Source of the DNA: Candidatus Aminicenantota bacterium
GTDB lineage: Bacteria; Acidobacteriota; Aminicenantia; JAMOAD01
DNA length: 64,000 bases
Assembly: GCA_027061995.1 (NCBI GenBank)
Contig: JAMOUT010000101.1
Span: 12,892 to 76,891, forward strand
Direction of reading: 5' to 3'
Positions within the stretch are counted from its first letter, which is position 1, and each line of letters starts with the position of its first letter. The translations under genes and the position numbers were made by a program. Shown piece by piece: positions 23,703-43,229 of the stretch. The notes beneath the pieces are model-generated. The model was not told the origin of the DNA and ran no database searches. It was given only the letters and a program-made list of their open reading frames with translations.

Positions 23703-25034
23703 TTAAAGAATAGCGAGATATTTTTTCAATTCATAATCGGTTACCTTTACTCTGAATTCATCCCAATGAGCCTTTTTCGATTCTATGATTTTTCCGAAGG
23801 CTGATTCTCCGAGTGCTTGTTTCAGGATATCCCCTTTTTCAGCTTCAAGAATAGCTTCAATCAAAGATCCGGGCAGTGATTCTATACCCTCCTCTTTTCT
23901 TTTAATATAATCAAATTTATAAATATTTTCTTCCTGAGGTTTCGACAATTGGTATCTCTTTTCAATTCCGGTTAATCCCGATTTTAAAAGAACGGAAAAC
24001 AAAAGATAGGGATTTGACGCGGGATCGGGAGCTCGATATTCTATTCTTGTTCCCGAAGGTTTTCCCATTCTTGTTTTCGGAACCCTGATAAGGGGAGATC
24101 TATTACTTCTTCCCCATGAGATATAAACAGGTGCTTCATATCCGGGAACAAGTCTTTTATAAGAGTTCACCCATTGATTCGTGATTAATGTTATCTCTTT
24201 TGCATGATTTAAAAGGCCTGATACATAGTATTTTGCTATATCGGATAATTTTGCTTCATCATTATCAGAATAAAAGGCATTTTTTCCCTCTTTAAACAGA
24301 GATTGGTGAACATGCATTCCACTCCCGTTTATATGTTCAACTGGTTTAGGCATAAATGTCGCATAATAACCATTGTCAATAGCTATTTTTTTCACGAGAT
24401 ATTTAGCTGTTATAAGATTATCAGCCATTGTTAATGCGTCAGTGTATTTAAAATCAAGTTCATACTGAGAAGGGGAGACTTCATGATGAACATATTCAAC
24501 TTTAATTCCCAATTTTTCAAGATGTAAAACGGTCTCCATTAACAGATTTTCTCCTGTGTCAGGAGGAACCAAATCAAAATATCCGTTATAATCTATGAAA
24601 TCAACTTCAAAAGGTTTTTTAAAATAAAAAAACTCAAGTTCGGGACCAACAAAAAACGAATATCCGAGAGATTTTGCATAATCGAGATTTTTCTTTAAAA
24701 TACCCCTCGGAGCATCACTATAACAGGAACCGTCCGGCATAACAACATCACAAAAGATCCGTGCCACTTTTATATTATCCTTATTATTGTCATTTTTAAA
24801 CGGAAGAATTTTAAAAGTGGAAAAATCGGGTTTCAAAAACATATCACTCTCTTCTATCCTTGTAAAACCTCTTATTGAACTTCCGTCAAAGGAAGCTCCT
24901 TCGTCAAGAACATCTCCTATTTGATCCTTAAATACATTAACGGTTTTAAGATTACTCTCAAGGTCAACAAACCAAAGCTGAAGAAACTTAATATTCTCTT
25001 TCTCGATAATTTTTTTTACATCTTTTGCGTTCAT
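23703..25034 (-). CDS. glnA: Glutamine synthetase, type I
   Basis: 443 residues, the length of the shorter GSI-alpha type. Signatures: FVDLESNLKTV near the N-terminus, DEGASFDGSSIRGF, the metal/ammonia segment around VEYVHHEVSPSQYELDF, the ATP-binding HINGSGMHVHQSLF, and the RAPDPASNPYLLFSVLL block. The usual NLYDLP-type adenylylation site is not seen near the C-terminus, as expected for GSI-alpha. It makes glutamine from glutamate, ammonium and ATP. It lies 23 bp after moaE, so it may be read from the moaD promoter. Confidence 0.95.
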   Translation of the reverse strand: MNAKDVKKIIEKENIKFLQLWFVDLESNLKTVNVFKDQIGDVLDEGASFDGSSIRGFTRIEESDMFLKPDFSTFKILPFKNDNNKDNIKVARIFCDVVMPDGSCYSDAPRGILKKNLDYAKSLGYSFFVGPELEFFYFKKPFEVDFIDYNGYFDLVPPDTGENLLMETVLHLEKLGIKVEYVHHEVSPSQYELDFKYTDALTMADNLITAKYLVKKIAIDNGYYATFMPKPVEHINGSGMHVHQSLFKEGKNAFYSDNDEAKLSDIAKYYVSGLLNHAKEITLITNQWVNSYKRLVPGYEAPVYISWGRSNRSPLIRVPKTRMGKPSGTRIEYRAPDPASNPYLLFSVLLKSGLTGIEKRYQLSKPQEENIYKFDYIKRKEEGIESLPGSLIEAILEAEKGDILKQALGESAFGKIIESKKAHWDEFRVKVTDYELKKYLAIL

Positions 25035-29304: not shown

Positions 29305-31050
29305 TCAGGAATTAAATTTTACATCCCAATTCTTTAATCTGTAATAATCTTTTAAAAGAGAGATATATTCCCCTTTTGTTAAAGAGTTTTTATCGAACGG
29401 ATTTTTAAAAAATATATCAGGAAGCATATCATCATCAGGTTGTTTCATCCCCTCCCTGATATTAAATCTCCTCGCCATATCCGTTATATCGGTAGCAATC
29501 TCTTTTAATCTGTTTTCACTATATTCCATACCCATGGTTATATATAAAATCGTTTTAATCTCATCATAATAAACAATATCTCTGAAAAACCGACAAAGGA
29601 TAAGAGTATCGTATATAGTCAGCCTGTTTTCATACTCAATGAGAAGTTTTGCTTTTCCTTTAATTTCCTCGGGAGAAATTATTCCCGCAAGTTCCGGTTT
29701 GTAAAAAGTGGTTCTAAGATGACATGCACCTCTGTCCGAAACACCGAATGAAAGCCCCATCCCTTTTAATACTCTCGGATCATAACCGGGAGGCTCCAAC
29801 CCTTTTACATGAATCGCTATCTCTTCAAGACCCAATAGTTCGGCAGCTCTTTTAACTCCATGGGATAAAATCTCCCCTACCCCCTTTCTTTTTGCAATCA
29901 GATTTAAAAGTTCGATAATACCGTCCACATCCCCATACTCTATTTTAAAATCTATTTTCCCCCTTTTGTTCGCTTCAACTGCAAAAGAGGTTATGTTTGC
30001 AGCTGTTATCGTATCTATCCCCAATTTATCGCAAACATCATTAATATATGAAATCTCCCTTAAATCATCCACAAGATTCAAACCTCCGAAGCCATTTATT
30101 GTTTCATATTCAGGACCATCAAGAGAAACTCCCTTTCTTCTCCCGTCTTTCACTTTGCTTTTTCTTGTGCATCCTATAAAACAATAACCGCATGATTCAG
30201 CTTTAACGGCAAGGGTGTTTATTAATGCATCACCATTGATTTTATCTGTAAAAGGAACGCTCCCCTTATGCCAATACTCCGTGGGAAAAGCATTAGCGTT
30301 CGTAGTGTATCCGACCGTAATTGATGTTCCGTATTTTCTATATGCCTTAAAACCCGTAACTTGTTTTCCCCTTTTTAAAAGAGCTCTGTTATATTCTTTC
30401 AAAATCTCTTTTGAGAAAATCTCTTTTTCACTGTTTCCGTAAAAAACTATTGCTTTCAGATTCTTGGAACCCATGACAGCTCCTATACCCGTTCTCCCGA
30501 GACTTCTTCCGAAATCATTATTAACATAAGCAAAACTAACAAGATTTTCTCCCGCCACCCCTATTGTTATGGCTGAAGCATTAAATTTATTATATTTCTC
30601 TTCAAGTATTTTTTCCGCCTCAAAAGCATCAAGACCTCTTAAACTTTCATCCTCAATAAATTCAACTTTTTTATCGGTTATTACAAGATATCCGAATTTA
30701 TCCATTTTCCCGTTTATAATAATCGCATCATAACCTGTCCTTGCCAAATTAACAAAAGCTTTCCCCCCCGCATAAGATTCAGCATAAAATCCCGTGAGAG
30801 GTGATTTTGTAAAAGCGGCAAACCGATTTGCACCCCAGATGTTTGTTCCGATAACAGGACCTATTGTAAAGATCAACCTGTTTTCAGGAGACAAAGGATT
30901 AACACCCTTAGGATTCTCTTTTAATAAAAGATATGTCCCCAACCCTTTTCCCCCGATATAGTTTTTATATATCTCTTCATTCGGATATTCCATATAACTC
31001 TTTTTCAGACCGAGTTCTATTTTTATTATTCTTCCGAAGTTGCCTTTCAT
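29305..31050 (-). CDS. Aldehyde:ferredoxin oxidoreductase family tungsten enzyme
   Basis: 581 residues. The N-terminal AOR domain has NYIGGKGLGTYLL and FTIGPVIGTNIWGANRF; the middle holds SYAGGKAFVNLARTGYDAIIINGK. The 4Fe-4S ligands are C287-x2-C290-x3-C294 plus a C-terminal Cys in TLILCRFF. Family members oxidise aldehydes to acids at a tungsten bis-pterin centre and pass electrons to ferredoxin in the cytoplasm. It is 9 bp downstream of the nitrilase gene and is the last gene of the long operon; in that context an aldehyde formed after transamination is a likely substrate (inference). Confidence 0.9.
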   Translation of the reverse strand: MKGNFGRIIKIELGLKKSYMEYPNEEIYKNYIGGKGLGTYLLLKENPKGVNPLSPENRLIFTIGPVIGTNIWGANRFAAFTKSPLTGFYAESYAGGKAFVNLARTGYDAIIINGKMDKFGYLVITDKKVEFIEDESLRGLDAFEAEKILEEKYNKFNASAITIGVAGENLVSFAYVNNDFGRSLGRTGIGAVMGSKNLKAIVFYGNSEKEIFSKEILKEYNRALLKRGKQVTGFKAYRKYGTSITVGYTTNANAFPTEYWHKGSVPFTDKINGDALINTLAVKAESCGYCFIGCTRKSKVKDGRRKGVSLDGPEYETINGFGGLNLVDDLREISYINDVCDKLGIDTITAANITSFAVEANKRGKIDFKIEYGDVDGIIELLNLIAKRKGVGEILSHGVKRAAELLGLEEIAIHVKGLEPPGYDPRVLKGMGLSFGVSDRGACHLRTTFYKPELAGIISPEEIKGKAKLLIEYENRLTIYDTLILCRFFRDIVYYDEIKTILYITMGMEYSENRLKEIATDITDMARRFNIREGMKQPDDDMLPDIFFKNPFDKNSLTKGEYISLLKDYYRLKNWDVKFNS

Positions 31051-31059
31051 TTTATCACC

Positions 31060-31851
31060 TCAATATGTTTGATTTATTATTCGTTTCAGTTTTTCTCTAT
31101 ACTTTAAAAAGTGATTGTAGTTTAAAGTAACACCTTTTAATCCTTTCTCCCTCACCACTTTCACCCGCTCTTTCGAAATAATCTCGGTTAAAATTATTTC
31201 ATCGTTTTCCACCCTCTGCAACTCTTCCCCCTCAGGTCCGTAAATTGCGGATTTTCCAACAAGATAATTATTGACCCCGTTAAAACTCGCAACATAAGCA
31301 TTGTTTAATATTGCATAGGATTTGGCTATATTTAATTCCAACTCTCTGTCAGAGGTTGTGGTATAGTGGGGATAAATTAAAAGTTCCGCTCCTTTTAATA
31401 CCATGGCTCTTGCAATTTCAGGGAAAAAGATATCATAGCAGATACCAATACCTATTTTAATCTTTCCCTCGAAATCAAAAACAAATATATTCTCGCCATG
31501 TTCAATCAATTCAAAAGGTTCCCATGGAAACATCTTATCATAGTTTCCCATAATTTCACCATTTTTATTAATAACATAAAGTCTATTAAATATTTTTCCT
31601 TTTTCTTTTACATACATTGAACCCGGAATCACCCATATTTGATTATCCTTTGCAATATTTTTTAATTCTTCAATATATTTATTATCCAAAACAATAATAT
31701 CCTTTTGAGCACCTTGAATGGCAAGTTCGGGAAAAATGATGAGTTCGGTTTTATAAAGTTTCGAGCTTCTCAACACAATTTCTTTCATTTTTTTCAAATT
31801 TTCTTCATAATTACCCGGCTTTATTCTCATCTGTGCAAAAGCAATTTTCAT
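31060..31851 (-). CDS. Carbon-nitrogen hydrolase (nitrilase superfamily amidase)
   Basis: 263 residues from the ATG at 31851, preferred over an upstream in-frame start at 31899 because AGGAGG lies 6 bp before it and it forms an ATGA overlap with the preceding stop. The catalytic triad is Glu42 (FPELAIQG), Lys106 (NYDKMFPWE) and Cys138 (GICYDIFFPEIAR). It hydrolyses an amide, carbamoyl or nitrile bond; omega-amidase or carbamoylputrescine-amidase-like roles are possible. It sits between the exported GATase1-like protein and the AOR. Confidence 0.88.
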   Translation of the reverse strand: MKIAFAQMRIKPGNYEENLKKMKEIVLRSSKLYKTELIIFPELAIQGAQKDIIVLDNKYIEELKNIAKDNQIWVIPGSMYVKEKGKIFNRLYVINKNGEIMGNYDKMFPWEPFELIEHGENIFVFDFEGKIKIGIGICYDIFFPEIARAMVLKGAELLIYPHYTTTSDRELELNIAKSYAILNNAYVASFNGVNNYLVGKSAIYGPEGEELQRVENDEIILTEIISKERVKVVREKGLKGVTLNYNHFLKYREKLKRIINQTY

Positions 31852-33059
31852 TTTGACCCTCCTAATATTTCCTTGAAAACTGTTTTTAAGAAAATCCACC
31901 CACTCTTTTTTACCGCTTCACCACTTCTCAGAGGAAATTTAGTTTCATCCTTAGAACTTTCTGCTATCATTTCAGGATGAAAACCGAGTAGAACAACTTT
32001 TCCTTTTCCATAATTAAAATCAAATGCAGCCAACCTGTTTTTGGAATAATACGCAATAGGATTAAACTTCCCTTTTACTTTAAAATAGGGTCCTCCCAGA
32101 TAATACATATTTTTAACAATTCCGTTTTTAAATTTAATTTTTGCTATCCCGGCCATAGGCCAATGAGAAATATCGTCCAAAGGGCCTATCGCAGAATCAT
32201 AGAATTTGAGTATCCCTTTGTATTTCACACCTTTCCAAACAATATTTTTCGCTCCGAAATATGCTCCGGCACAGATTCCCAAATAATTTCCCCCGTTTTT
32301 TATAAAATCAATAATGTTTTCAGCTCCTTTTTTACCAATATCCCTTGAGTAATAGCCTGCCCAACCACCCGGAAAATAAATAACCTTTATATTTTTAAAT
32401 ATTTTACCGTTTATTACATCTTTTGCACCCATTGTTTTGTAAGATATTTTCGCCCATTCAAAAAATTCCTGAGACGCTTGTAAATTTTTGTAATAAGCCC
32501 CCGAGTCAATGTATATCCCAACATCAACCTTACCCTTTCTATTAACCGGCACTCTAACTTCTGTCAAAAGTTCGTTTTCAGGAGTATTCCGAGGAATGTT
32601 TAGATAAACCTCGGAATAATTTCCTACGACAGTTAAATTATGCTTATCTATATAATTATTTAAAATACCATAGGCTCTTAAAATATGTTTATAACTACCT
32701 TTATAAATTATATAAGCGACAAGTTCTGATCTCACCCTTTTAAATTTCACAATATCATCTGAGCACGGGGGATAAACACCCGGAAAATATACGGGAATTC
32801 TCGCCTCTGATCTTGAAAATTCCTTCGAGGTAAGTGAATTACTAAGATATACAACTTCACCGTAACCATTGATTTTATAACCAAAATCAATCAAATAATT
32901 ATAAATTATATTGAATTTCCCACTTAAAAGAGAATAATCTCCCCTATGTTTAATATAGGCTACAAACCTCGTATCAGTAAATTTAACTCTAACTTGTGAA
33001 AAAGAGAAAATATGTAAGATTAACAATATATTAAAAACAAACAATATTTTTTTATTCAT
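31848..33059 (-). CDS. Exported protein with two GyrI-like domains and a GATase1-like (BPL_N type) domain
   Basis: 403 residues with a signal peptide (1-21). Residues about 25-91 and 105-172 are two related units with the GyrI/SOUL-type pattern (FVAYIKHRGDY...SEARIPV and LVAYIIYKGSY...TEVRVPV). Residues about 178-395 form a class I glutamine-amidotransferase-like domain: a strand ending in FPGGW, the nucleophile elbow G261-I-C263-A-G, and H361-P-E363, so Cys-His-Glu is complete. It most resembles the BPL_N family. The substrate is unknown. The start overlaps the aminotransferase gene by 8 bp. An exported ligand-binding enzyme acting on a peptide or amide is the best inference. Confidence 0.7.
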   Translation of the reverse strand: MNKKILFVFNILLILHIFSFSQVRVKFTDTRFVAYIKHRGDYSLLSGKFNIIYNYLIDFGYKINGYGEVVYLSNSLTSKEFSRSEARIPVYFPGVYPPCSDDIVKFKRVRSELVAYIIYKGSYKHILRAYGILNNYIDKHNLTVVGNYSEVYLNIPRNTPENELLTEVRVPVNRKGKVDVGIYIDSGAYYKNLQASQEFFEWAKISYKTMGAKDVINGKIFKNIKVIYFPGGWAGYYSRDIGKKGAENIIDFIKNGGNYLGICAGAYFGAKNIVWKGVKYKGILKFYDSAIGPLDDISHWPMAGIAKIKFKNGIVKNMYYLGGPYFKVKGKFNPIAYYSKNRLAAFDFNYGKGKVVLLGFHPEMIAESSKDETKFPLRSGEAVKKSGWIFLKTVFKEILGGSK

Positions 33060-34353
33060 ATTCTTTTTCGACCTCCATGATCAAGCTTACAAGAATATCA
33101 AGAGCTTTGTCAAGATATTTATTACTTATTGTAAGAGGCATAAGAGTTCTTATAACATTACCGTAAACTCCGCAGGATATTAGTAAAAGCCCCTTTTCTC
33201 TTGATTTTGAAATTAATTTTGACACAAATTCCTTGAATGGCTCTTTTGTTCTTTTGTCTTTAACAAATTCAATCCCAATCATAGCCCCTTTTCCTCTTAT
33301 ATCCGCAATATATTTTGATTTTGTTTTTATTTCACTTAATCTTTCAATTACCCTTTCTCCTATTAATTTCGCATTATTCCAAAGTTCATTTTTTTCCATG
33401 AATTTAATTGCCGAAAGTGCGGCGACACAGGAAACAGGATTTCCTCCGAATGTCCCACCAAGCCCCCCTTCCTGAATATTTTCCATTAATTCTTTTTTAC
33501 CTATAACCGCTGAGAGCGGAAGACCTCCTGCAATAGATTTTCCCAAAGTTATCATATCATAATCAAGTCCTGTTTGTTCCCAGTAAAACATCGTTCCCGT
33601 TCTACAAAAACCGCTTTGTATCTCATCAACAATAAGTAAGATTCCATATTTTTTCGTGATTTCCCTTAGTTTTTTTAAATATTCAAGTGGTGCCGCGACA
33701 AAACCGCCTTCACCTATTAAGGGTTCTATTATAACAGCCGCAATTGTTTCAGGATCAAAATACTTTATAAAGTGTTCTTCCAGGATTTTTATATAATAAT
33801 CCGCACACTCCTTTTCACTTTGAAAATCTTTTTCCCCTCTAAAACAATAAGGATAAGGAACTCTATAAACTTCGGGCAAAAACGGTCCGAAACCTTTTTT
33901 ATAAGGATTTACCTTTGATGTCAAAGAAAGTGTTGATATTGTTCTCCCGTGGAATGCATAATCAAAAGTTAAAATTCCCGATCTTTCGGTATAATGTCTT
34001 GCTATTTTCATGGCATTTTCAACAGCTTCTGCTCCGGAGTTTAATAATATTCCCATTTTATCAAATTGTCCGGGGGTGATTTTCACTAATTTTTCCATCA
34101 ATTCAATATAAGGGGTATGCATATATGTATGAAAGCAAGCATGAGTGAATTTATCAACCTGCTCTTTTATCGCTTTTGCAACTTCTTTATTGGCATTCCC
34201 AACATTTAGAACTCCTATTGAGCCTGTAAAATCTATATACTCATTCCCAAGGTTATCATATAATAAAAAATCCTCGGCTCTATCCATAATAATTTTATGC
34301 ACATTATATACAGCCTTTGGAATAATTTCATCTCTTTTTTCCTCCGGTTTCAT
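33052..34353 (-). CDS. Class III PLP-dependent aminotransferase (4-aminobutyrate aminotransferase-like)
   Basis: 433 residues, the full family length. Lys272 in ITLGKSIAGGLPLSAV is the PLP Schiff-base residue. D243 in IVDEIQSGFCRTG binds the pyridine nitrogen, and NSGAEAVENAMKIAR binds phosphate. It transfers the amino group of an omega-amine (GABA, putrescine, ornithine or similar) to 2-oxoglutarate or pyruvate, yielding an aldehyde. An SD (GGAGG) precedes the ATG. The pairing with an AOR in one operon fits aldehyde oxidation. The exact substrate cannot be read. Confidence 0.9.
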   Translation of the reverse strand: MKPEEKRDEIIPKAVYNVHKIIMDRAEDFLLYDNLGNEYIDFTGSIGVLNVGNANKEVAKAIKEQVDKFTHACFHTYMHTPYIELMEKLVKITPGQFDKMGILLNSGAEAVENAMKIARHYTERSGILTFDYAFHGRTISTLSLTSKVNPYKKGFGPFLPEVYRVPYPYCFRGEKDFQSEKECADYYIKILEEHFIKYFDPETIAAVIIEPLIGEGGFVAAPLEYLKKLREITKKYGILLIVDEIQSGFCRTGTMFYWEQTGLDYDMITLGKSIAGGLPLSAVIGKKELMENIQEGGLGGTFGGNPVSCVAALSAIKFMEKNELWNNAKLIGERVIERLSEIKTKSKYIADIRGKGAMIGIEFVKDKRTKEPFKEFVSKLISKSREKGLLLISCGVYGNVIRTLMPLTISNKYLDKALDILVSLIMEVEKEYE

Positions 34354-34404
34354 TTAATCCTCCTAAAATATGTTTTATTTAAAAATCCACGATGATATCG
34401 CCTT

Positions 34405-34438
34405 TAGCAGGAGGGGGATTTATCCCCGCTTCCTGCTA
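34405..34438. promoter_or_regulatory. RNA hairpin between TonB receptor and aminotransferase genes
   Basis: TAGCAGGA...TCCTGCTA arms with an inner GGGGA/TCCCC stem form a strong imperfect hairpin in a 96-bp gap within the operon. No T-run follows on the minus strand, so it is more likely an mRNA-stability or processing element than a complete terminator. Confidence 0.55.
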
Positions 34439-34449
34439 TATGGCTTGCT

Positions 34450-37400
34450 TTAAAATTTAAAATTTAAGGAAAAGTAAACAATTCTTTGTCCGAGAGCTGT
34501 TACTTTTTTCTTCCATCCCGGATGAACATTCAATATTGTTCCGTCAGGATTTATTGTAAGATGTGTTCCATATCTCTGATAAAGAAGCGCACTCCCAAAA
34601 AGATTCATTATATCCATTGAAAAAGTAAATACAGATTTATTCCCGAGTTTAAACTCTTTCAAAAGTTTAATATCCAACTGATTAAAATCAGGGCCTCTAT
34701 GCGTTCCAATCGGTTCCGCCAATACTTCGGGTTTATACCATGTAGGCACATTCGGTAAAGAATTATTTACAACTATCACACTTCTTTGAATCGGAAGTCC
34801 CGACATATATCTGTAATTAAAACTGAAGAATATATTAAACGGGATTTTAAAAGTTCCTTGCAATTTCACAAGAAGAGGTCTGTTAAAAGTGGGATCAGAG
34901 CCTTGACGATTCACCATATAATTGGGATCATCAAAGGCTGTGCTCACGCCATTTGTCTCGTAAAAAGCATTTCCCAAAGTTGCTTCGGCTTTTGAGAGAG
35001 TAACAGAGGCGAGCATCTGCCATCCGTGGGATAAAGCTTTTCTTAATGTAAATTCAAGTCCTTTGTATTTTCTATAAGCTTCTTTTGGATTTGTAACTTT
35101 AAATATTGACGGAGCAAGACTATTCACAAGAAAATATACTTCATATTTTTTATCATCTGATGTCCCTAAAACACCATCCCAACCGGGGTCCACAACACTC
35201 TGTTTTACAAAATCAGAAGATTTCTTACCATAATCCGTATCTTCTATTAGATCACCATCATACCTATCAATATAACTGACGGAAAAAGAAAAATCCTTAA
35301 AAAGTTGTCTTTCAAAAGTTATGATAAATTCCTTAGTGTAAGGTGGTTTTAAATTAGGATCTATTCTGTCTTTCGGATGTTTGTAACCGCCCCATGCCCA
35401 CATAGGTTCATAGTAGTCTGTCGTATCAAACTTATCATTCCAATTTGAATCATACCAGTAAAAGGCAATGTATGGGTAATACATCGGATTAATATCGGAT
35501 GCATACTGAATATTCATATAGGAGTAATATTTTCCGTAAAAACCTTTTAGTGCTGTTTTACCGTCACCAGTAAGATCAATGCTAATACCAAGCCTCGGAG
35601 AAACGGTTTTCCAAGTCATATAATCCTTTACTTCAGGATAACTTCTCGGGGCGAAAAAATCAAGACCATAACCATATGCAGACATCATTGTGCTCATCCA
35701 ATATGAATTCTTTAAAAATGTGTTCCACTCGGGAGAACCGGTTGTTTGTTGAGCTGGTATTCGGGCATTTGAATAATCATATCTCAGACCGAAATTAAAA
35801 TATACCCTACCATTAAACAATGAAAAATCATCCTGGAAATAGGCACTGTATCTGCTGGTTCTGTCTTTTTGAATACTGTTACCGGACTTTGTTCCGATTG
35901 ATCTTGCATAGAACTTACCCGCTCCCCACCACCATATTGAAAACAGATGATTACTTCCGTTTTCGGTAAAATATTCGGCAGGTAGTAAATCACCAATATT
36001 CCCCGGCATCCAAGTATCCCAATCATCTTTTGCAAACTCTATTTCGGCTCCGATTTTTATTTTATGATCTGCACCCAATAAATTACTAATGAATTTTGTG
36101 AGGGATGCCATGGTTTGAAATCTTCCCCTATTATATACCTCATTCATCCAATATCCTTTATAGAATAGACCTTTTGAGATATCATATGCTCTATAGCCTG
36201 TCCCATCTCTCATCAGAAGCGGAAAATATTTATGGATATAGCCTGTCCTAAAATCAAAATTCGTATTTTGATTAATCGCCCAATTTAACTTCAAATAAGC
36301 TGTTATATCTTTTTCATGATCCCAATTCGGGGCCGCTTCAGGAAGATACTTCCATCCTATATAATAAGGACTACCGTTTACAACAACTCCCTGATGAACA
36401 TCCCATCTCGGCTCATATGCATTTATATAGTTGAAAACAGTATCAAGTTTTAGATTTTGAGAAAGATTTGAAGTGAATTTCATAAAGATATTATGCTCTT
36501 TATGTGTAACAGCATCTTTTGATTCAAAGCCGGCCGGAGTATATTTCCATCCGATATATCTATATGATGAAAAAAACCAGAGTTTGTTTTTTACAATCGG
36601 TCCGCCTATATTAAGTGCCATATCATTATTATAATTTGTCTTCAAAGGGGTATATTCAACTTTTTCTTTCTTATAAATATCCATTCCCGGTTTATCAGAC
36701 GCAAGAGAATCAAGGGTAAAATAATAGTTAAGTTCTCCCATCAGATTATTGTTTCCCGACTTAGTAACAACATTAACATAAGAACCGGTTCCCTCTCCCA
36801 CTTCAGCGGGATGTGCCGCTGTTTGAAGCTCTACCTCTTCAATGGCATAATAATTGATATTAGTCGAAAGATATCCGTGCCTCGGATCATTCATCATGAA
36901 ACCGTCAAATGCATACACATTATCTCTTATTGATGAGCCATGAGTTGCAAAAGCTCTCGAATATGTAACATTATCGGTAACAACTCCAGCTGCAGAAGCG
37001 ATGATGTCATATACATCCTTTTTAAGCGGAATCTCCTCTATGAGTTCTTTTGAATATGTTGTTGATCTTTTTGAACTTGAAGCATCAAGTAGAATAGGTT
37101 TCGCTTCCACAACAACATTTTCGGAAACTTTTAACGGAAGTTTGATTTTTAATGTGTAAGTTTTACCCACATTAATTCTTACATTTTTTACTTCAACAGG
37201 GGCAAATCCGGATAATTCCGTTTTCACATTATAAATTCCGGGAGATAATTCAAGAAAAACAAACTCCCCTTTTTCATTTGAAATATAATGTTTTGTTAAG
37301 GTATCTCCATTCACCATAACCATTGCTCCCGGAATCGGCTTGCCGTTTTCATCAACAACCTTTCCTTTTAACACTCCTGTCTGCATCTGAGCATAAATTA

Positions 37401-37461
37401 CAGAGGAGAACAAGAATGCTAAAATTAAAAGGAAAAGAAGCGATTTTTTTTGTTTTTTCAC
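34450..37461 (-). CDS. TonB-dependent receptor with N-terminal carboxypeptidase-regulatory-like domain
   Basis: 1003 residues with a signal peptide (1-24). Residues 27-112 are a CarboxypepD_reg-like beta sandwich (GVLKGKVVDENGKPIPGAMV). Residues about 115-240 form the TonB plug (EEIPLKKDVYDIIASAAGV, then SYVNVVTKSGNN), and the rest is a beta-barrel ending in Phe. It imports a ligand across the outer membrane using proton-motive force. The start codon is GTG with AGGAGG 5 bp upstream, and that SD lies inside the end of the small membrane-protein gene. It is part of the symporter-aminotransferase operon, so the ligand may be the substrate of that pathway. Confidence 0.9.
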   Translation of the reverse strand: MKKQKKSLLFLLILAFLFSSVIYAQMQTGVLKGKVVDENGKPIPGAMVMVNGDTLTKHYISNEKGEFVFLELSPGIYNVKTELSGFAPVEVKNVRINVGKTYTLKIKLPLKVSENVVVEAKPILLDASSSKRSTTYSKELIEEIPLKKDVYDIIASAAGVVTDNVTYSRAFATHGSSIRDNVYAFDGFMMNDPRHGYLSTNINYYAIEEVELQTAAHPAEVGEGTGSYVNVVTKSGNNNLMGELNYYFTLDSLASDKPGMDIYKKEKVEYTPLKTNYNNDMALNIGGPIVKNKLWFFSSYRYIGWKYTPAGFESKDAVTHKEHNIFMKFTSNLSQNLKLDTVFNYINAYEPRWDVHQGVVVNGSPYYIGWKYLPEAAPNWDHEKDITAYLKLNWAINQNTNFDFRTGYIHKYFPLLMRDGTGYRAYDISKGLFYKGYWMNEVYNRGRFQTMASLTKFISNLLGADHKIKIGAEIEFAKDDWDTWMPGNIGDLLPAEYFTENGSNHLFSIWWWGAGKFYARSIGTKSGNSIQKDRTSRYSAYFQDDFSLFNGRVYFNFGLRYDYSNARIPAQQTTGSPEWNTFLKNSYWMSTMMSAYGYGLDFFAPRSYPEVKDYMTWKTVSPRLGISIDLTGDGKTALKGFYGKYYSYMNIQYASDINPMYYPYIAFYWYDSNWNDKFDTTDYYEPMWAWGGYKHPKDRIDPNLKPPYTKEFIITFERQLFKDFSFSVSYIDRYDGDLIEDTDYGKKSSDFVKQSVVDPGWDGVLGTSDDKKYEVYFLVNSLAPSIFKVTNPKEAYRKYKGLEFTLRKALSHGWQMLASVTLSKAEATLGNAFYETNGVSTAFDDPNYMVNRQGSDPTFNRPLLVKLQGTFKIPFNIFFSFNYRYMSGLPIQRSVIVVNNSLPNVPTWYKPEVLAEPIGTHRGPDFNQLDIKLLKEFKLGNKSVFTFSMDIMNLFGSALLYQRYGTHLTINPDGTILNVHPGWKKKVTALGQRIVYFSLNFKF

Positions 37462-37462
37462 T

Positions 37463-37702
37463 TTAACCTCCTTTTTTATTGTGTTCTTTCATTATTTTGA
37501 TAATTTCAATAGTCCCTCCTATAATAGTAGCAAGCCATATAAGTGGAAGGGAATATATCAAAAGATAGATCATTGCCCCAATCATATTTCCTAAGAAGAA
37601 TATATAATAAAGCACAAAAAGGATGAAGATTATTATCCACCCTACTTTTTTTGTTATCTTTAATTCTCCGAAAAACAATCTAATAATTTTCTTTAAACCC
37701 AT
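37463..37702 (-). CDS. Small two-helix membrane protein, unknown
   Basis: 79 residues: an amphipathic basic N-terminus, then two hydrophobic helices (about 20-40 and 44-68) and a Lys-rich tail. It overlaps the symporter gene by 10 bp, and its 3' end holds the SD of the receptor gene, so it is tightly embedded. The position directly after a sodium:solute symporter suggests an accessory subunit, like the small DUF-type partners of other SSS or acetate permeases, but no family is recognised. Confidence 0.7.
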   Translation of the reverse strand: MGLKKIIRLFFGELKITKKVGWIIIFILFVLYYIFFLGNMIGAMIYLLIYSLPLIWLATIIGGTIEIIKIMKEHNKKGG

Positions 37703-39168
37703 GGTATCTCCTTCCAGAGAGTCTTATTAACGATTTCATCGGGTTCTTGTTGATCAATATAGCTGATAAAAACCATAAATATTAAAGAAACGAATAGCCC
37801 TATATGAACAAAGTGAAATCCTCCGACAATAGCATTAGGAGAACCTTTCCTATACCACGCAAATAATGAAAAAACAAAAGAGGATATTAAACCGGAAATA
37901 AGAGAATAGTAAGCCCCTCTGGAAGTTCCTCTTTTCCAAAACCATGCTGCAAAAACAGGAACTAATAATCCAGAAACAGCAAGTCCTTGTCCTATTATCC
38001 ATAGCGGGATAAGAAAAGGAACCCATAAAGCCGTCGCTATACCAAATAAGGTTGTTACAATAACAGCTATTCTTGAAATTTTTATATGATCATATTTTTG
38101 AGTTATTTTTGTTTTTTTAAGGAAATCATTATACATCAGTGTAGCACCGTTTAACAGAAAAGAGGAAGCACAGGACAAAACAGTCATGAGAAAAGACACA
38201 AGTAAAAACAGACCAATTGCAGGATGAATTACTTTTGTAATGAAGTAAAGATATATTTGGTCCCCCTGAATTGAGGCGGGGAGTGAAATTATGTTAGCTT
38301 TTGCAGCGGACTCTATCAGCATCCCCCCTATAAAAGATATGGCTCCCCATGGAGATGATAAGGATACCGCAACCATTGCATCAAAAGATGTTTGTGCACT
38401 TTTTGCCATATATGCCCATTGATAAAGCCAAGGATCAACAAGATAAAATAATCCCATTGTTATAATCCAGACAGTAAAAATAGAGAAATCAGTATTATAA
38501 GCATTTAGTTTTTCAGGGGATAAAAATTTGTGTAAATTTGAAAAAGACGCACTTATTCCACCATTGTAAAATATTGTAGCTCCAAAAAATATTAATAAAC
38601 CGGCACCTTGAAGTATTGACTGAATCCATTGTGCTGTTATGGCTGAATATTGTCCCCCTGTTACAGTATATACCAAGATCAAAACAGCACTAATTATAAT
38701 TCCGTATTTCATATTTAATCCGAAAGCCACCTTAAAAACGATTCCGAGAGCCACAAATTGAAGACCGGCGATAAACACTGGCCTTAGATAACTAATGAAA
38801 GAGGACAGTATTCTTATTTTCTCCCCGTATCTGGTTGCAAGAAAATCAGGTAAAGTATAAGCTTCATTAATTCTACCGAAAACATTAAGTTTTTTTGCAA
38901 AAGCAAAAGCAAAAATAGGTAATGTTAATCCTGACACCGCAATGAGCCACATAGAGGAGTAGCCGTCATTATATCCGTATCCTACAAATCCGGCGGTAGA
39001 TGCCCCCCCTATTGCCGCTCCCGTATAAGCTCCGAAAAAAAGCCAAAATCCTATATTCCTTCCCATCAACAAAAACTCTTTTGGTTTTGAAACTTTAGAA
39101 AATTTAACCCCAATAAACAAAAATAGAAAAAAGAGAATAATTAAGGCTGTTATTGAAACAACACTCAT
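37693..39168 (-). CDS. Sodium:solute symporter (SSS family)
   Basis: 491 residues with about 13 membrane helices. Typical blocks are FLLMGRNIGFWLFFGAYTGAAIGGAST near the N-terminus (substrate/sodium region), YTLPDFLATRYG after helix 2, and VYTVTGGQYSAITAQWIQ in the middle. It imports an organic solute with Na+. The start is 1 bp after the regulator stop, so both share one mRNA. The substrate is likely the one handled by the downstream aminotransferase/amidase genes; amino acid, amine or carboxylate cannot be distinguished. Confidence 0.9.
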   Translation of the reverse strand: MSVVSITALIILFFLFLFIGVKFSKVSKPKEFLLMGRNIGFWLFFGAYTGAAIGGASTAGFVGYGYNDGYSSMWLIAVSGLTLPIFAFAFAKKLNVFGRINEAYTLPDFLATRYGEKIRILSSFISYLRPVFIAGLQFVALGIVFKVAFGLNMKYGIIISAVLILVYTVTGGQYSAITAQWIQSILQGAGLLIFFGATIFYNGGISASFSNLHKFLSPEKLNAYNTDFSIFTVWIITMGLFYLVDPWLYQWAYMAKSAQTSFDAMVAVSLSSPWGAISFIGGMLIESAAKANIISLPASIQGDQIYLYFITKVIHPAIGLFLLVSFLMTVLSCASSFLLNGATLMYNDFLKKTKITQKYDHIKISRIAVIVTTLFGIATALWVPFLIPLWIIGQGLAVSGLLVPVFAAWFWKRGTSRGAYYSLISGLISSFVFSLFAWYRKGSPNAIVGGFHFVHIGLFVSLIFMVFISYIDQQEPDEIVNKTLWKEIPWV

Positions 39169-39169
39169 G

Positions 39170-39958
39170 TTAAAAAGTGGGAGGAGTATTTATCCAAATT
39201 ACAACAGTCATATTATCAGTGGGATTAATCCATTTGTGAGGCCTTGAGCTATTAAAATATAAGCTATCTCCCGGTCCCAGTATATGCTCAATCTTTCCTT
39301 CTATAATAATTTTCAATTTCCCGGATAGAACAAAAATAAACTCTTCACCTTTATGACAATAGAACTCTTCACTACCCGCTCGCGGTTCGATATAAAACAT
39401 ATGAGGTTCCATTGCAGTATCCCCTTCTGCAAGAAGCTCCATCCTAACTCCTTTTATATCCATGAAGATTGATTTTCTCTCCCCCGCCCTTATAAGCTCT
39501 CTCGGTTTTCCCTCAGCCGAAAAAAAGTATAATGTATTTACATTTAAGGCATTAGCAATTCTTTTTAAATTTACAATCGAAAGATTTGTCTTACCCTGTT
39601 CTACCTGGTTAAGAAAGGAGATTGAAAAACCTGCTTTCTTCGAAAGTTCTTTTACAGAAACTCTGTTTCTCTGTCTTAATCTTTTTATTTTATCACCTAT
39701 TCTTTCCCTATTTAATGCTTCTTTCCCTATTTCTTCATCTTTACCTATTTTAAGAATCTCTTTAATGGCTTCACTCTTATAACCCTTATCCTTAAGTTCT
39801 TTGACCTTCCTAATAATATTTAAATCACCTTCGTCAAAAAACCTAAATCTACCTTTGGATCTTTTGCTCTTAATCAACCCCTCTCTTTCCCAGAACCGAA
39901 TTGTGGAAGTGCTTACTTTTAATATTTTTGCTATATCACCTATGAAATATTTTATCAT
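39170..39958 (-). CDS. Transcriptional regulator with MerR HTH, XRE HTH and cupin domains
   Basis: 262 residues. Residues 1-70 form a MerR winged helix (YFIGDIAKILKVSTSTIRFWEREGLI, then GRFRFFDEGDL). About 87-142 is an XRE/Cro HTH (KIKRLRQRNRVSVKELSKKAGFS, NQVEQGKTNLS). About 160-262 is a cupin (HKGEEFIFVLSGKLKI, LGPGDSLYFNSSRPHKW). XRE-cupin proteins such as PuuR sense small metabolites; the extra MerR domain is unusual. It is the first gene of the operon and is probably autoregulatory with the symporter as its immediate target. Confidence 0.88.
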   Translation of the reverse strand: MIKYFIGDIAKILKVSTSTIRFWEREGLIKSKRSKGRFRFFDEGDLNIIRKVKELKDKGYKSEAIKEILKIGKDEEIGKEALNRERIGDKIKRLRQRNRVSVKELSKKAGFSISFLNQVEQGKTNLSIVNLKRIANALNVNTLYFFSAEGKPRELIRAGERKSIFMDIKGVRMELLAEGDTAMEPHMFYIEPRAGSEEFYCHKGEEFIFVLSGKLKIIIEGKIEHILGPGDSLYFNSSRPHKWINPTDNMTVVIWINTPPTF

Positions 39959-39963
39959 CCTAT

Positions 39964-39992
39964 AATATAATTACAATTTTTATCTTTGTCAA
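39964..39992 (-). promoter_or_regulatory. Promoter of the regulator-symporter-receptor operon
   Basis: Minus strand: TTGACA (39992-39987), 17 bp, TATATT (39969-39964). Only 5 nt (ATAGG) separate the -10 from the ATG at 39958, so the mRNA should be leaderless or nearly so. Confidence 0.7.
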
Positions 39993-40300: not shown

Positions 40301-40411
40301 ATGTATTCATCTAAAATAGCTGACATTAAAGGGAAAGAAAGGGAATCAAATAGTTATAAACATATAGAACCACGCTTTATATTTTTAGTTATTTTAAACA
40401 ATGGAAATTGA
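40301..40411 (+). CDS. Possible 36-residue leader peptide coupled to the sensor kinase
   Basis: The ATG at 40301 has AGAAGGG 3-4 bp upstream. The ORF ends at a TGA (40409-40411) 8 bp inside the kinase gene, which has no SD of its own. This arrangement suggests translational coupling. The peptide (MYSSKIADIKGK...) has no recognisable domain. It could equally be untranslated; confidence is low. Confidence 0.35.
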   Translation: MYSSKIADIKGKERESNSYKHIEPRFIFLVILNNGN

Positions 40412-43229
40412 AAATAAAAATAATATTATTCAATTCATAAAAAAATGGGGATTTTTTTTCATTCTTACTTTTGCCATAAGCACTCTTCTCATTGATATTT
40501 ACGATAGCTACAGCTCATTCAAAAATCGTTCCAAACAGATGCGAGAAAATTATGTGGCTCAACAAAAACGGGAGATAAAACAACAAGTTATTCAGGTTGT
40601 TAATACCATTCGTTTTCAATTATTATTACTTGAGAAAAGGATGAAAAACATCACAAAAGAGAGAGGGGACCTGCTTTTTAATCTGATCAATAGTATTTAT
40701 ATGAATAATAAATACAAAAAGAGTGATAAGGAGATAAAGGAAATAATATTAAACAACTTGAGAAAAATTAAATTTAATATTGGAGAAGGTTGTTGTTTTA
40801 TTTATTCTTTATCCGGAAAAGTTGTTTTATATCCCGAAAACCCATCGCTTGAAAGAAAAAACCTACAAAAAATAAAAAATCAAACAGGGGAATTTATAAT
40901 TAAAAAATATTTTACAGAGGTAAAAAATAAAGGGGAAATAATTAAATCCGAATTTTATAATAAAGCTTATTCAGAAGAAGGTAAATATTATAAAAAAATC
41001 ATTCACCTAAAATTATTCAAACCTTTTGGTTGGATTATAGGAAATTTCGTATATATCGGTAGTATTGAAAAAGAGATGAAAAAAGAGCTGTTAAAAAACA
41101 TCAGTAAAATAAGATTCGGCAAAGAGGGGTATATTTTCATAAACAGATTTAACGGGAATACATTAGTTTCAAACGGGAAAATATTCTCCGGAAAGAAAAA
41201 ATTGTGGGAAATTTTTAATAAACATCCTGATAAGATGAAAGATATTTTTAAAAAAGAGTATAATGCAGCCTTAAAACCGGAAGGTGGCTATATCTATTAT
41301 ACATTCATTAAACTAACAAGTCCTAATAAGGAATCTCCAAAAACCTCGTTTGTTTTCGGCATTCCGGAATTAAAATGGCTCGTTGGTTCGGGAGTATATC
41401 TTGATGATATTGAAAGTGATATTTTAACCATGCAGAAAAATTTATTACACGATATAATAAAAAAAATGTTCTGTTTTTTATTAATAATAACAGGGGTCAT
41501 CTTTATTTTCCTGTTCTTATTACAAAAATTAACCAATAAGCTTAAAAATGATTTTAACCTGTTTTTCTCTTTTTTTAATCAAGCGGTTTATTCAAGTAAA
41601 CCGATAGATATTGACGAAGTCAGATTTCAAGAATTTAAAACAATGGCAATTAACGCCAATAAAATGTTGGAAGAGAAAAACAGGTTTCAACAAGCATTAT
41701 TAAATGAAAAAGAGCAACTGTTTGTAACAATTCGGTCAATCGGAGACGGAGTTATTACCACAAATAAAAAAGGTGAAATTAGAATCATGAATAAAGTCGC
41801 TGAAAAACTAACCGGATGGAAACTAAAGGATGCGGAAGGGAAAAGTTTGGATAAAATATTTAATATTATTAATCAAAATACGGGAGAAAAAATAATAAAC
41901 CCGGTGGATAAAGTATTAAAAAAGGGGGATATTATAGAATTTGCAAATGATACTGTTTTAATTTCAAAAAATAAACGGAAGTATAATATAGAAGATAGCG
42001 CAGCCCCCATAAAAGACAAACAAGGTAAAATACTCGGGGTCGTGTTGGTATTCAGGGATGTATCAGAAAAATTAAGAACCGAAAAACAACTTATCAAGGC
42101 AAAAAAATTGGAATCCGTAGGTATTCTCGCAGGAGGAATCGCACATGATTTTAATAATATATTAATGGGAGTTTTCGGAAATCTTGAAATTGCAAAATTA
42201 AAAACCAAAGATAACCACCCCGCTTATAAATTTATAGAAACCGCAAATAATGCTCTCGAAAGAGCAACCAATCTGACAAATCAATTACTAACCTTTGCAA
42301 AAGGGGGAGATCCTATATTAAATGTTGTTGATTTGGAATCAATTGTAAAAAAAACAGTTGATTTTAATCTTGCCGGAAGTAATATAAAAACGCACTATAA
42401 ATTCCCCTCACAAGGATTATGGAGAATAAAAGCTGATAAAGGGCAAATCAGTCAGGTTATTTCAAATATAATCATCAATGCTAAAGAGGCTATGCCTGAA
42501 GGGGGAAACATCTTCATTTATGCCGAAAACATTAAGAATACCGATAAAACATTAAAACTCAATTTACAAGAGAATTTCGTAAAATTGTCAATAAAAGATG
42601 AAGGGATAGGGATTTCTAAAAAACACATTGATAAAATTTTTGATCCCTATTTTACAACTAAGCAAACAGGGAGCGGCTTAGGACTTGCTACGGCTCACAG
42701 TATTATCAAAAAACATCAAGGGGAGATAAAAGTTGAGTCAACGGTGGATTCAGGAACTATTTTTACCATATATATACCCGCAGTAAAAGATAAAAAAATA
42801 TTAGGAAAAAAATTTAAGAAAGTGATATCTCATACAAAGAAATTTAAAAATTGTAAGGTCCTTATTATGGATGATGAGGAGATTATACTGGATGTAGCAA
42901 GCGAAATGTTTAAATCACTCGGATGTGAAATTGAAACAGCCGCTGATGGTAAAGAAGCAATTGATAAATTTAATTTATCAAAAAAAGAAAACAAAACTTT
43001 TGATTTAATCATAATGGATTTAACTATTCCGGGTGGATTAGGGGGAAAAGAAACCATAAAAAAGATATTAGAGATTGACCCCAAAGCAAAAGTTATTGTT
43101 TCAAGCGGTTATTCCACGGATCCTATAATGGCTAATTATAGAGAATACGGGTTTAAAGGAAGGCTCGTGAAACCATTTAAATTAAATGATTTAAAAAGTG
43201 AGTTGTTAAAAATTTTAATCGAGTATTGA
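40401..43229 (+). CDS. Hybrid sensor histidine kinase with Cache sensor, PAS and receiver domain
   Basis: 942 residues: TM1 (about 17-33), an extracytoplasmic Cache-type sensor (about 35-345, with RFGKEGYIFINRFNGNTLV and ELKWLVGSGVYLDD typical of Cache_2), TM2 (about 353-373), PAS (about 430-550), HisKA with His582 (GILAGGIAHDFNN), HATPase with N and G boxes (DEGIGISKKHIDKIFDPYF, GSGLGLATAHSI), and a C-terminal receiver with Asp873 (LIIMDLTIPGG). It autophosphorylates and may relay internally to its receiver. No partner regulator is adjacent. The Cache domain suggests sensing of a small organic ligand, possibly that of the divergent transport operon (inference). Confidence 0.9.
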   Translation: MEIENKNNIIQFIKKWGFFFILTFAISTLLIDIYDSYSSFKNRSKQMRENYVAQQKREIKQQVIQVVNTIRFQLLLLEKRMKNITKERGDLLFNLINSIYMNNKYKKSDKEIKEIILNNLRKIKFNIGEGCCFIYSLSGKVVLYPENPSLERKNLQKIKNQTGEFIIKKYFTEVKNKGEIIKSEFYNKAYSEEGKYYKKIIHLKLFKPFGWIIGNFVYIGSIEKEMKKELLKNISKIRFGKEGYIFINRFNGNTLVSNGKIFSGKKKLWEIFNKHPDKMKDIFKKEYNAALKPEGGYIYYTFIKLTSPNKESPKTSFVFGIPELKWLVGSGVYLDDIESDILTMQKNLLHDIIKKMFCFLLIITGVIFIFLFLLQKLTNKLKNDFNLFFSFFNQAVYSSKPIDIDEVRFQEFKTMAINANKMLEEKNRFQQALLNEKEQLFVTIRSIGDGVITTNKKGEIRIMNKVAEKLTGWKLKDAEGKSLDKIFNIINQNTGEKIINPVDKVLKKGDIIEFANDTVLISKNKRKYNIEDSAAPIKDKQGKILGVVLVFRDVSEKLRTEKQLIKAKKLESVGILAGGIAHDFNNILMGVFGNLEIAKLKTKDNHPAYKFIETANNALERATNLTNQLLTFAKGGDPILNVVDLESIVKKTVDFNLAGSNIKTHYKFPSQGLWRIKADKGQISQVISNIIINAKEAMPEGGNIFIYAENIKNTDKTLKLNLQENFVKLSIKDEGIGISKKHIDKIFDPYFTTKQTGSGLGLATAHSIIKKHQGEIKVESTVDSGTIFTIYIPAVKDKKILGKKFKKVISHTKKFKNCKVLIMDDEEIILDVASEMFKSLGCEIETAADGKEAIDKFNLSKKENKTFDLIIMDLTIPGGLGGKETIKKILEIDPKAKVIVSSGYSTDPIMANYREYGFKGRLVKPFKLNDLKSELLKILIEY

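Follow-up and report, generated by a model that had tools for sequence, protein, structure and literature searches.

In a 64,000-nucleotide stretch of Candidatus Aminicenantota assembly GCA_027061995.1 (contig JAMOUT010000101.1; the whole stretch is called the window here), eight genes on the minus strand make up a predicted operon. We consider, with a probability of roughly 0.6, that it encodes a regulated route for the anaerobic breakdown of an amide-bound omega-amino acid resembling GABA or 5-aminovalerate. From head to tail the genes encode a regulator (REG), a sodium:solute symporter (SSS), a small membrane protein (SMP), a TonB-dependent-type receptor (TBDT), a class III aminotransferase (AT), a GATase1-like protein (GAT1), a nitrilase-superfamily amidase (NIT) and a tungsten-type aldehyde:ferredoxin oxidoreductase (AOR). 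The evidence for the pathway is the conservation of the gene set, the replacement of AOR by another kind of aldehyde-oxidising enzyme at the same place in relatives, and the residues kept in AT and AOR.

The open reading frames (ORFs) run from 39958 down to 29305, and the junctions in the order REG to AOR measure 1, −10, 1, 96, −8, −4 and 9 bp, negative values being overlaps; the 4 bp overlap of GAT1 and NIT holds if NIT starts at the ATG at 31851. These coordinates and junctions bear out the same-strand order and spacing that had been described by a model given only the letters and their ORFs (the sequence-only reading). Its domain assignments are confirmed by Pfam for seven of the eight proteins, the 79-aa membrane protein belonging to no family, but it had overlooked the N-terminal GyrI-like domain of GAT1. 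The genome that holds the window (G000) comprises 2.36 Mb in 104 contigs and is 95% complete.

Conservation of the gene set and exchange of the aldehyde-oxidising enzyme

All eight genes occur in the same order in genome G151 (L006), at 65-83% identity. In G150 (L005), the genes REG to NIT run up to the end of a contig, with NIT and AOR following on contig C176, the complete set in that genome spanning L005/L051 and L083, while in G102 the genes REG to AT are followed by a contig end. More distant Acidobacteriota retain a core of REG, SSS, AT and the probably exported GAT1. The sequence-only reading had proposed to look for such co-occurrence and had named separate promoters as a finding that would speak against it; what we find is a gene set conserved in G151, in G150 and, in part, in G102 behind different upstream genes, with one head promoter conserved in four genomes. 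The co-occurrence of the eight genes is far beyond chance and the unit is real.

In another family of the class, two genomes of genus g3 (G047 and G152) have the first seven genes in the same order (REG-SSS-SMP-TBDT-AT-GAT1-NIT; 30-62% identity). Their last gene, in the place of AOR, encodes a 474-aa aldehyde dehydrogenase (ALDH) of the NAD(P) type that overlaps NIT by 4 bp. The same ALDH arrangement is seen in G004 over two contigs, with ALDH at the start of the second, and the cluster is partial in G154. An ALDH also lies downstream of an M20 gene in G144, and an SSADH-like ALDH (539 bits against PRK09406, cutoff 730) lies on the far side of SSS in G046.

Genome-wide counts of the two enzyme families exclude each other. 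The ALDH family model PF00171 (Aldedh) gave no match in G000, G150, G151 or G102, each of which encodes four to seven AFOR proteins, and the same model was positive in 14 of 14 control genomes; the g3 ALDH protein used as a query agreed with this, finding no match in the window's own genome. Conversely, the six ALDH-type genomes (G004, G047, G152, G154, G144 and G046) have four or five PF00171 proteins apiece and no AFOR protein. Both families are present in G149, where no operon was detected. It seems, then, that the aldehyde step of the operon is served by whichever oxidising enzyme the lineage possesses; AOR is specific to the window's family and the wider module has ALDH. The earlier claim of a single route from import to acid thus gains comparative support, its aldehyde step in particular, and independently, from an ALDH that takes the place of AOR where AORs are absent.

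Substrate residues of the aminotransferase and AOR

The closest solved structure to AT is E. coli GabT (1sf2; E=1.6e-109, 370 bits). Residues I46, R137, E215, K272 and R402 of AT align with I50, R141, E211, K268 and R398 of GabT, and these substrate residues are kept in the AT of all seven aligned clusters. Against the TIGR00700 equivalog model AT scores 484.9 bits, under the cutoff of 506.65; we therefore say that it is predicted to work like a GABA aminotransferase and do not file it as GabT. Selenocysteine, considered for distant AT homologues, was rejected: the in-frame TGA is an ordinary stop codon overrun by the alignment.

AOR keeps its cluster cysteines (C287, C290, C294 and C486), and E316 and H444 align with E313 and H448 of P. 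furiosus AOR. Its domains together with these cofactor and active-site residues place it in the tungsten AOR family (AFOR), with a tungsten bis-pterin cofactor and ferredoxin-dependent aldehyde oxidation predicted. Two further residues, R476 and R487, align with R481 and R492 of P. furiosus FOR, the alignment being ungapped from one position to the other. Both arginines are found in nine of nine members of the AOR clade (support 100/100) and in a FOR-like paralogue, the second AOR of the same genome (L001/L085, G000:C46:34994-36739, QRIRGGLFEFIVSCRFPW). Leucine occupies both positions in P. furiosus AOR, 9mqx and 9g7j, and most other Aminicenantes AORs examined have one of the two arginines, none having both. 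By score the operon AOR is nearer to P. furiosus AOR (323 bits) than to FOR (275 bits), and in the tree it falls beside the FOR-like paralogue, a grouping that has long branches and is weakly supported (79/71).

In the 1999 FOR structure paper, R481 and R492 reportedly hold the far carboxylate of glutarate. If this role is right, the predicted substrate of the operon AOR is a dicarboxylic semialdehyde, which is the product of a GABA-type aminotransferase. The lowest Km of FOR is that for glutaric dialdehyde, and its crystal contains glutarate; a recent review still infers the physiological substrate of the best-studied FOR from the bound glutarate and Km values (PMC12096430).

Members of the operon's AOR clade also occur in family f6 (L077 1026-5090 in G249, L078 and L080), none with the operon alongside. 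The G249 gene adjoins genes for a ThiS-like protein and a POR/indolepyruvate-type ferredoxin oxidoreductase, and in this family the clade perhaps has another use.

Amide hydrolysis, uptake and control

GAT1 has a putative triad of C263 (in GICAG), H361 and E363, invariant in seven homologues at 30-79% identity, which supplies the GxCxG nucleophile cysteine and His-x-Glu pair of class I glutamine amidotransferase-like hydrolases. Since the triad is invariant and the N-terminus, judged by eye, resembles a signal peptide, GAT1 is probably a periplasmic cysteine hydrolase. A GATase1-like fold is suggested by the BPL_N Pfam match, no PDB entry matching in sequence. The module is rare: among 396 genomes surveyed in the phylum, 7 have a GAT1 match at E<=1e-40. 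NIT combines a nitrilase domain with a Glu-Lys-Cys triad (E42, K106 and C138) that is invariant; its closest models (aliphatic amidase, formamidase and N-carbamoylputrescine amidase) all score under cutoff. Outside the class, G144, G046 and G389 each have an M20 deacylase of the ArgE/DapE type in the place of NIT, directly after AT-GAT1, with SSS divergent beside AT or REG. Because two unrelated amide hydrolases occupy one position, this exchange suggests that amide hydrolysis is a real step of the pathway.

Adjoining the G046 cluster is an 814-aa ORF with two BPL_N/GATase1-like regions (L049 13286-15730), and there is a similar match at the G389 contig end.

SSS is present in every cluster compared; its nearest model is PutP, with a score far under that model's cutoff. 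SMP has the conserved motif LP-IW-ATIIGGT-E and adjoins SSS in most clusters (L005, L006, L044-L046, L048 and L050), and is probably a small partner of SSS. It is also a candidate small subunit of SSS transporters. TBDT identity is 82-87% in family f1 and 51-52% in genus g3, and no TBDT match was found in L048, L049 or L103.

The head promoter is the best-scoring promoter on the minus strand and is nearly invariant in four genomes, despite their differing upstream genes. An inverted repeat overlapping its −10 box was considered as a regulon-wide site and rejected, since matches within the window are at chance level without enrichment; it is thus conservation that marks the repeat as a candidate operator. 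REG scores 63 bits against the PuuR model (cutoff 211) and is conserved in L005, L006, L050, L044-L046, L048 and L049. Its ATG lies only 5 nt past the end of the −10 box, and three relatives have about as short a distance there, so that the REG mRNA is probably leaderless. The hairpin claimed earlier for the 96-bp gap between TBDT and AT does fold better than shuffled sequences (−29.1 kcal/mol, z −3.0). In three relatives a different sequence allows a similarly shaped hairpin, with only one aligned pair compensated in the four-genome alignment.

Table 1. Features of the operon, from its head to its tail, in window coordinates
Feature	Position	Strand	Description	Basis
Head promoter	39964..39992	-	TTGACA-17-TATATT	11/12 consensus bases
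Candidate operator	overlaps -10 box of head promoter		inverted repeat TTGTAAT-TAT-ATTACAA	no mismatch in three relatives, two in window
REG	39170..39958	-	MerR_1 + HTH_3 (XRE) + Cupin_2 regulator, 262 aa	Pfam
SSS	37693..39168	-	sodium:solute symporter (SSF), 491 aa	Pfam
SMP	37463..37702	-	two-helix membrane protein, 79 aa	ORF; no Pfam or NCBIfam match
TBDT	34450..37461	-	TonB-dependent-type outer-membrane receptor, 1003 aa, CarboxypepD_reg + Plug + OMP_b-brl_4	Pfam
Intergenic hairpin	34354..34449	-	96 nt, between TBDT and AT	folding
AT	33052..34353	-	class III aminotransferase (Aminotran_3), GABA-AT type	Pfam and structure match
GAT1	31848..33059	-	GATase1-like BPL_N protein with N-terminal GyrI-like domain, probably exported	Pfam
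NIT	31060..31851	-	nitrilase-superfamily amidase; most likely start ATG 31851	CN_hydrolase 128 bits
AOR	29305..31050	-	tungsten-type aldehyde:ferredoxin oxidoreductase	AFOR_N 222 bits and AFOR_C 332 bits, spanning whole protein

The proposed pathway and its alternatives

In the pathway that we propose, TBDT would bring the conjugate into the periplasm, where GAT1 would cut or trim an amide by means of its Cys-His-Glu triad. The product would be imported with Na+ by SSS together with its small partner SMP, and NIT would hydrolyse an amide still left. AT would then pass the terminal amino group on to 2-oxoglutarate, and the semialdehyde so formed would retain the far carboxylate; AOR would bind this carboxylate by R476 and R487, oxidise the aldehyde to a dicarboxylate of the succinate or glutarate type and reduce ferredoxin. 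Rnf could convert the reduced ferredoxin back to an ion gradient that supports Na+-driven uptake by SSS, and REG would control its own promoter and hence the operon. What is observed here is the gene content, its conservation, the head promoter, the catalytic and substrate residues, the AOR/ALDH and NIT/M20 exchanges and the genes for RnfC and WtpA; from these we infer the order of the steps, the substrate, the direction, the energetics and the regulation. Because RnfC (557 bits) and the tungstate-binding protein WtpA (282 bits, cutoff 243) are encoded in the same genome, energy conservation via reduced ferredoxin is possible, though still a matter of inference. Tungstate uptake of the TupA type was considered and rejected, PF12849 being absent and WtpA present instead.

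Several points weigh against this pathway. The activities and the transcript unit are predictions drawn from comparison, and the substrate cannot be named, since no enzyme of the operon reaches a curated equivalog cutoff. The dicarboxylic substrate predicted for AOR depends on the part reportedly played by the FOR arginine pair in holding glutarate. The AOR clade is present in G247, G249, G252, G155, G207 and G179 with no operon gene on the stretch read around it, and so is not exclusive to the pathway. The AOR/ALDH cases amount to few lineages rather than ten independent ones, because the genomes are related, and their mutual exclusion may partly reflect genome-wide gene loss. AlphaFold gave unusable models both for AOR, from a single sequence (pLDDT 33), and for GAT1, from three sequences (pLDDT 34).

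Other readings of the same genes were considered. The operon could be a fragment of Davis-type lysine breakdown or of a polyamine route, with NIT in the role of DavA (5-aminovaleramidase) or of an N-carbamoylputrescine amidase, AT in that of DavT and AOR in that of DavD. The order of amidase, omega-aminotransferase and semialdehyde oxidation does match davA-davT-davD (PMC5020477), and NIT scores 79 bits on the N-carbamoylputrescine amidase model. That score is only 79 of the 410 bits needed, however, the cluster has neither lysine monooxygenase nor arginine decarboxylase, the first Davis step requires oxygen, and the M20 deacylase found elsewhere in the place of NIT fits an N-acyl or N-carbamoyl substrate, not a primary amide; we judge this reading unlikely. 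Catabolism of beta-alanine or N-carbamoyl-beta-alanine, in which NIT or M20 would be of the ureidopropionase type, AT a beta-alanine aminotransferase and AOR or ALDH a malonic semialdehyde oxidase, would explain the NIT/M20 exchange, ureidopropionases being known in both the nitrilase and M20-type families. Yet malonic semialdehyde is usually handled by a CoA-acylating dehydrogenase, a model under whose score the ALDHs of the clusters fall or which is not among their best matches, and AT carries the GABA-type residue set, all of which makes this route quite improbable.

It is also conceivable that AT, by its fold type, belongs with the amino-acid racemases or epimerases and that AOR detoxifies unrelated aldehydes, the genes sharing only a promoter. 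Racemases of the AT family do align at 255-267 bits, but the alignment to GabT reaches 370 bits and preserves all five substrate residues, and the AOR/ALDH exchange tracks the cluster; the chance of this being so seems slight. Slighter still is that of a biosynthetic or electron-disposal operon in which AOR runs in reverse, reducing an acid to the aldehyde that AT then aminates: some AORs can reduce acids using low-potential electrons, but uptake genes head this operon and relatives have at the same place an ALDH, which in practice oxidises.

The pathway for an amide-bound omega-amino acid, which we prefer, resembles several known systems in part. The E. coli Puu pathway (PuuR, PuuP, PuuD, PuuE, PuuC/GabD), which breaks down gamma-glutamylated putrescine, likewise gathers an XRE-cupin regulator, a GATase1-like protein that may be an amide hydrolase, a GABA-type aminotransferase and aldehyde oxidation in one cluster. 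Its gamma-glutamyl ligase (gamma-glutamylputrescine synthetase) and oxidase are, however, both absent from the operon cluster, which has a probably exported GATase1 protein of the BPL_N type, a TonB receptor, a Na+ symporter and a tungsten AOR instead of ALDH. A glutamine synthetase encoded at 23703-25034 was rejected as a PuuA-like partner, having passed the GlnA model (482/429) and failed GGputSyn (267/650). With gabT-gabD and davT-davD the operon shares an omega-aminotransferase followed by semialdehyde oxidation, the oxidising enzyme in genus g3 being ALDH as well; it differs in having AOR for the dehydrogenase and in including genes for uptake and for amide hydrolysis. P. furiosus FOR (1b25, 1b4n) and AOR (1aor) are of the same family and share cofactor residues with the operon AOR, which is nearer to AOR overall while carrying the FOR arginine pair; unlike them it is bacterial, stands in an operon with an aminotransferase and importers, and forms a clade of its own.

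The sequence-only reading knew of no described pathway with this exact gene set. A literature search on AOR in omega-amino-acid pathways or in Aminicenantes, with most subscription journals outside its scope, likewise found no description of the cluster. Tentatively, and at slightly less than even odds, we regard the operon as an undescribed Acidobacteriota module for amide-bound omega-amino acids with exchangeable parts, namely nitrilase or M20, and ALDH or a tungsten AOR that two arginines would adapt to dicarboxylic semialdehydes. If so, anaerobic members would recover electrons as reduced ferredoxin through a tungsten AOR, and genetics would define a physiological role for a FOR-type tungsten enzyme. 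Many tungsten aldehyde oxidoreductases still have no assigned physiological substrate; here gene context, an ALDH exchange at the same position and active-site residues would place one AOR clade in a defined pathway step, making its substrate directly testable. The module also points to a means by which omega-amino acids can still be used in an uncultured anaerobic lineage whose genomes yielded no aldehyde dehydrogenase gene.

The surroundings of the operon differ between genomes. In the window a divergent hybrid histidine kinase with a dCache_2 sensor (40401-43229) lies upstream, and in L005 the upstream genes encode a chemoreceptor with a dCache_2 sensor (L005 93-1766) and a ZnuABC-type metal transporter; the presence of different dCache_2 sensors upstream in two genomes may be coincidence. 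Just downstream of the G151 operon there is an EstD-like esterase (L006 15317-16686) whose coding sequence is divided between two ORFs, perhaps owing to a frameshift.

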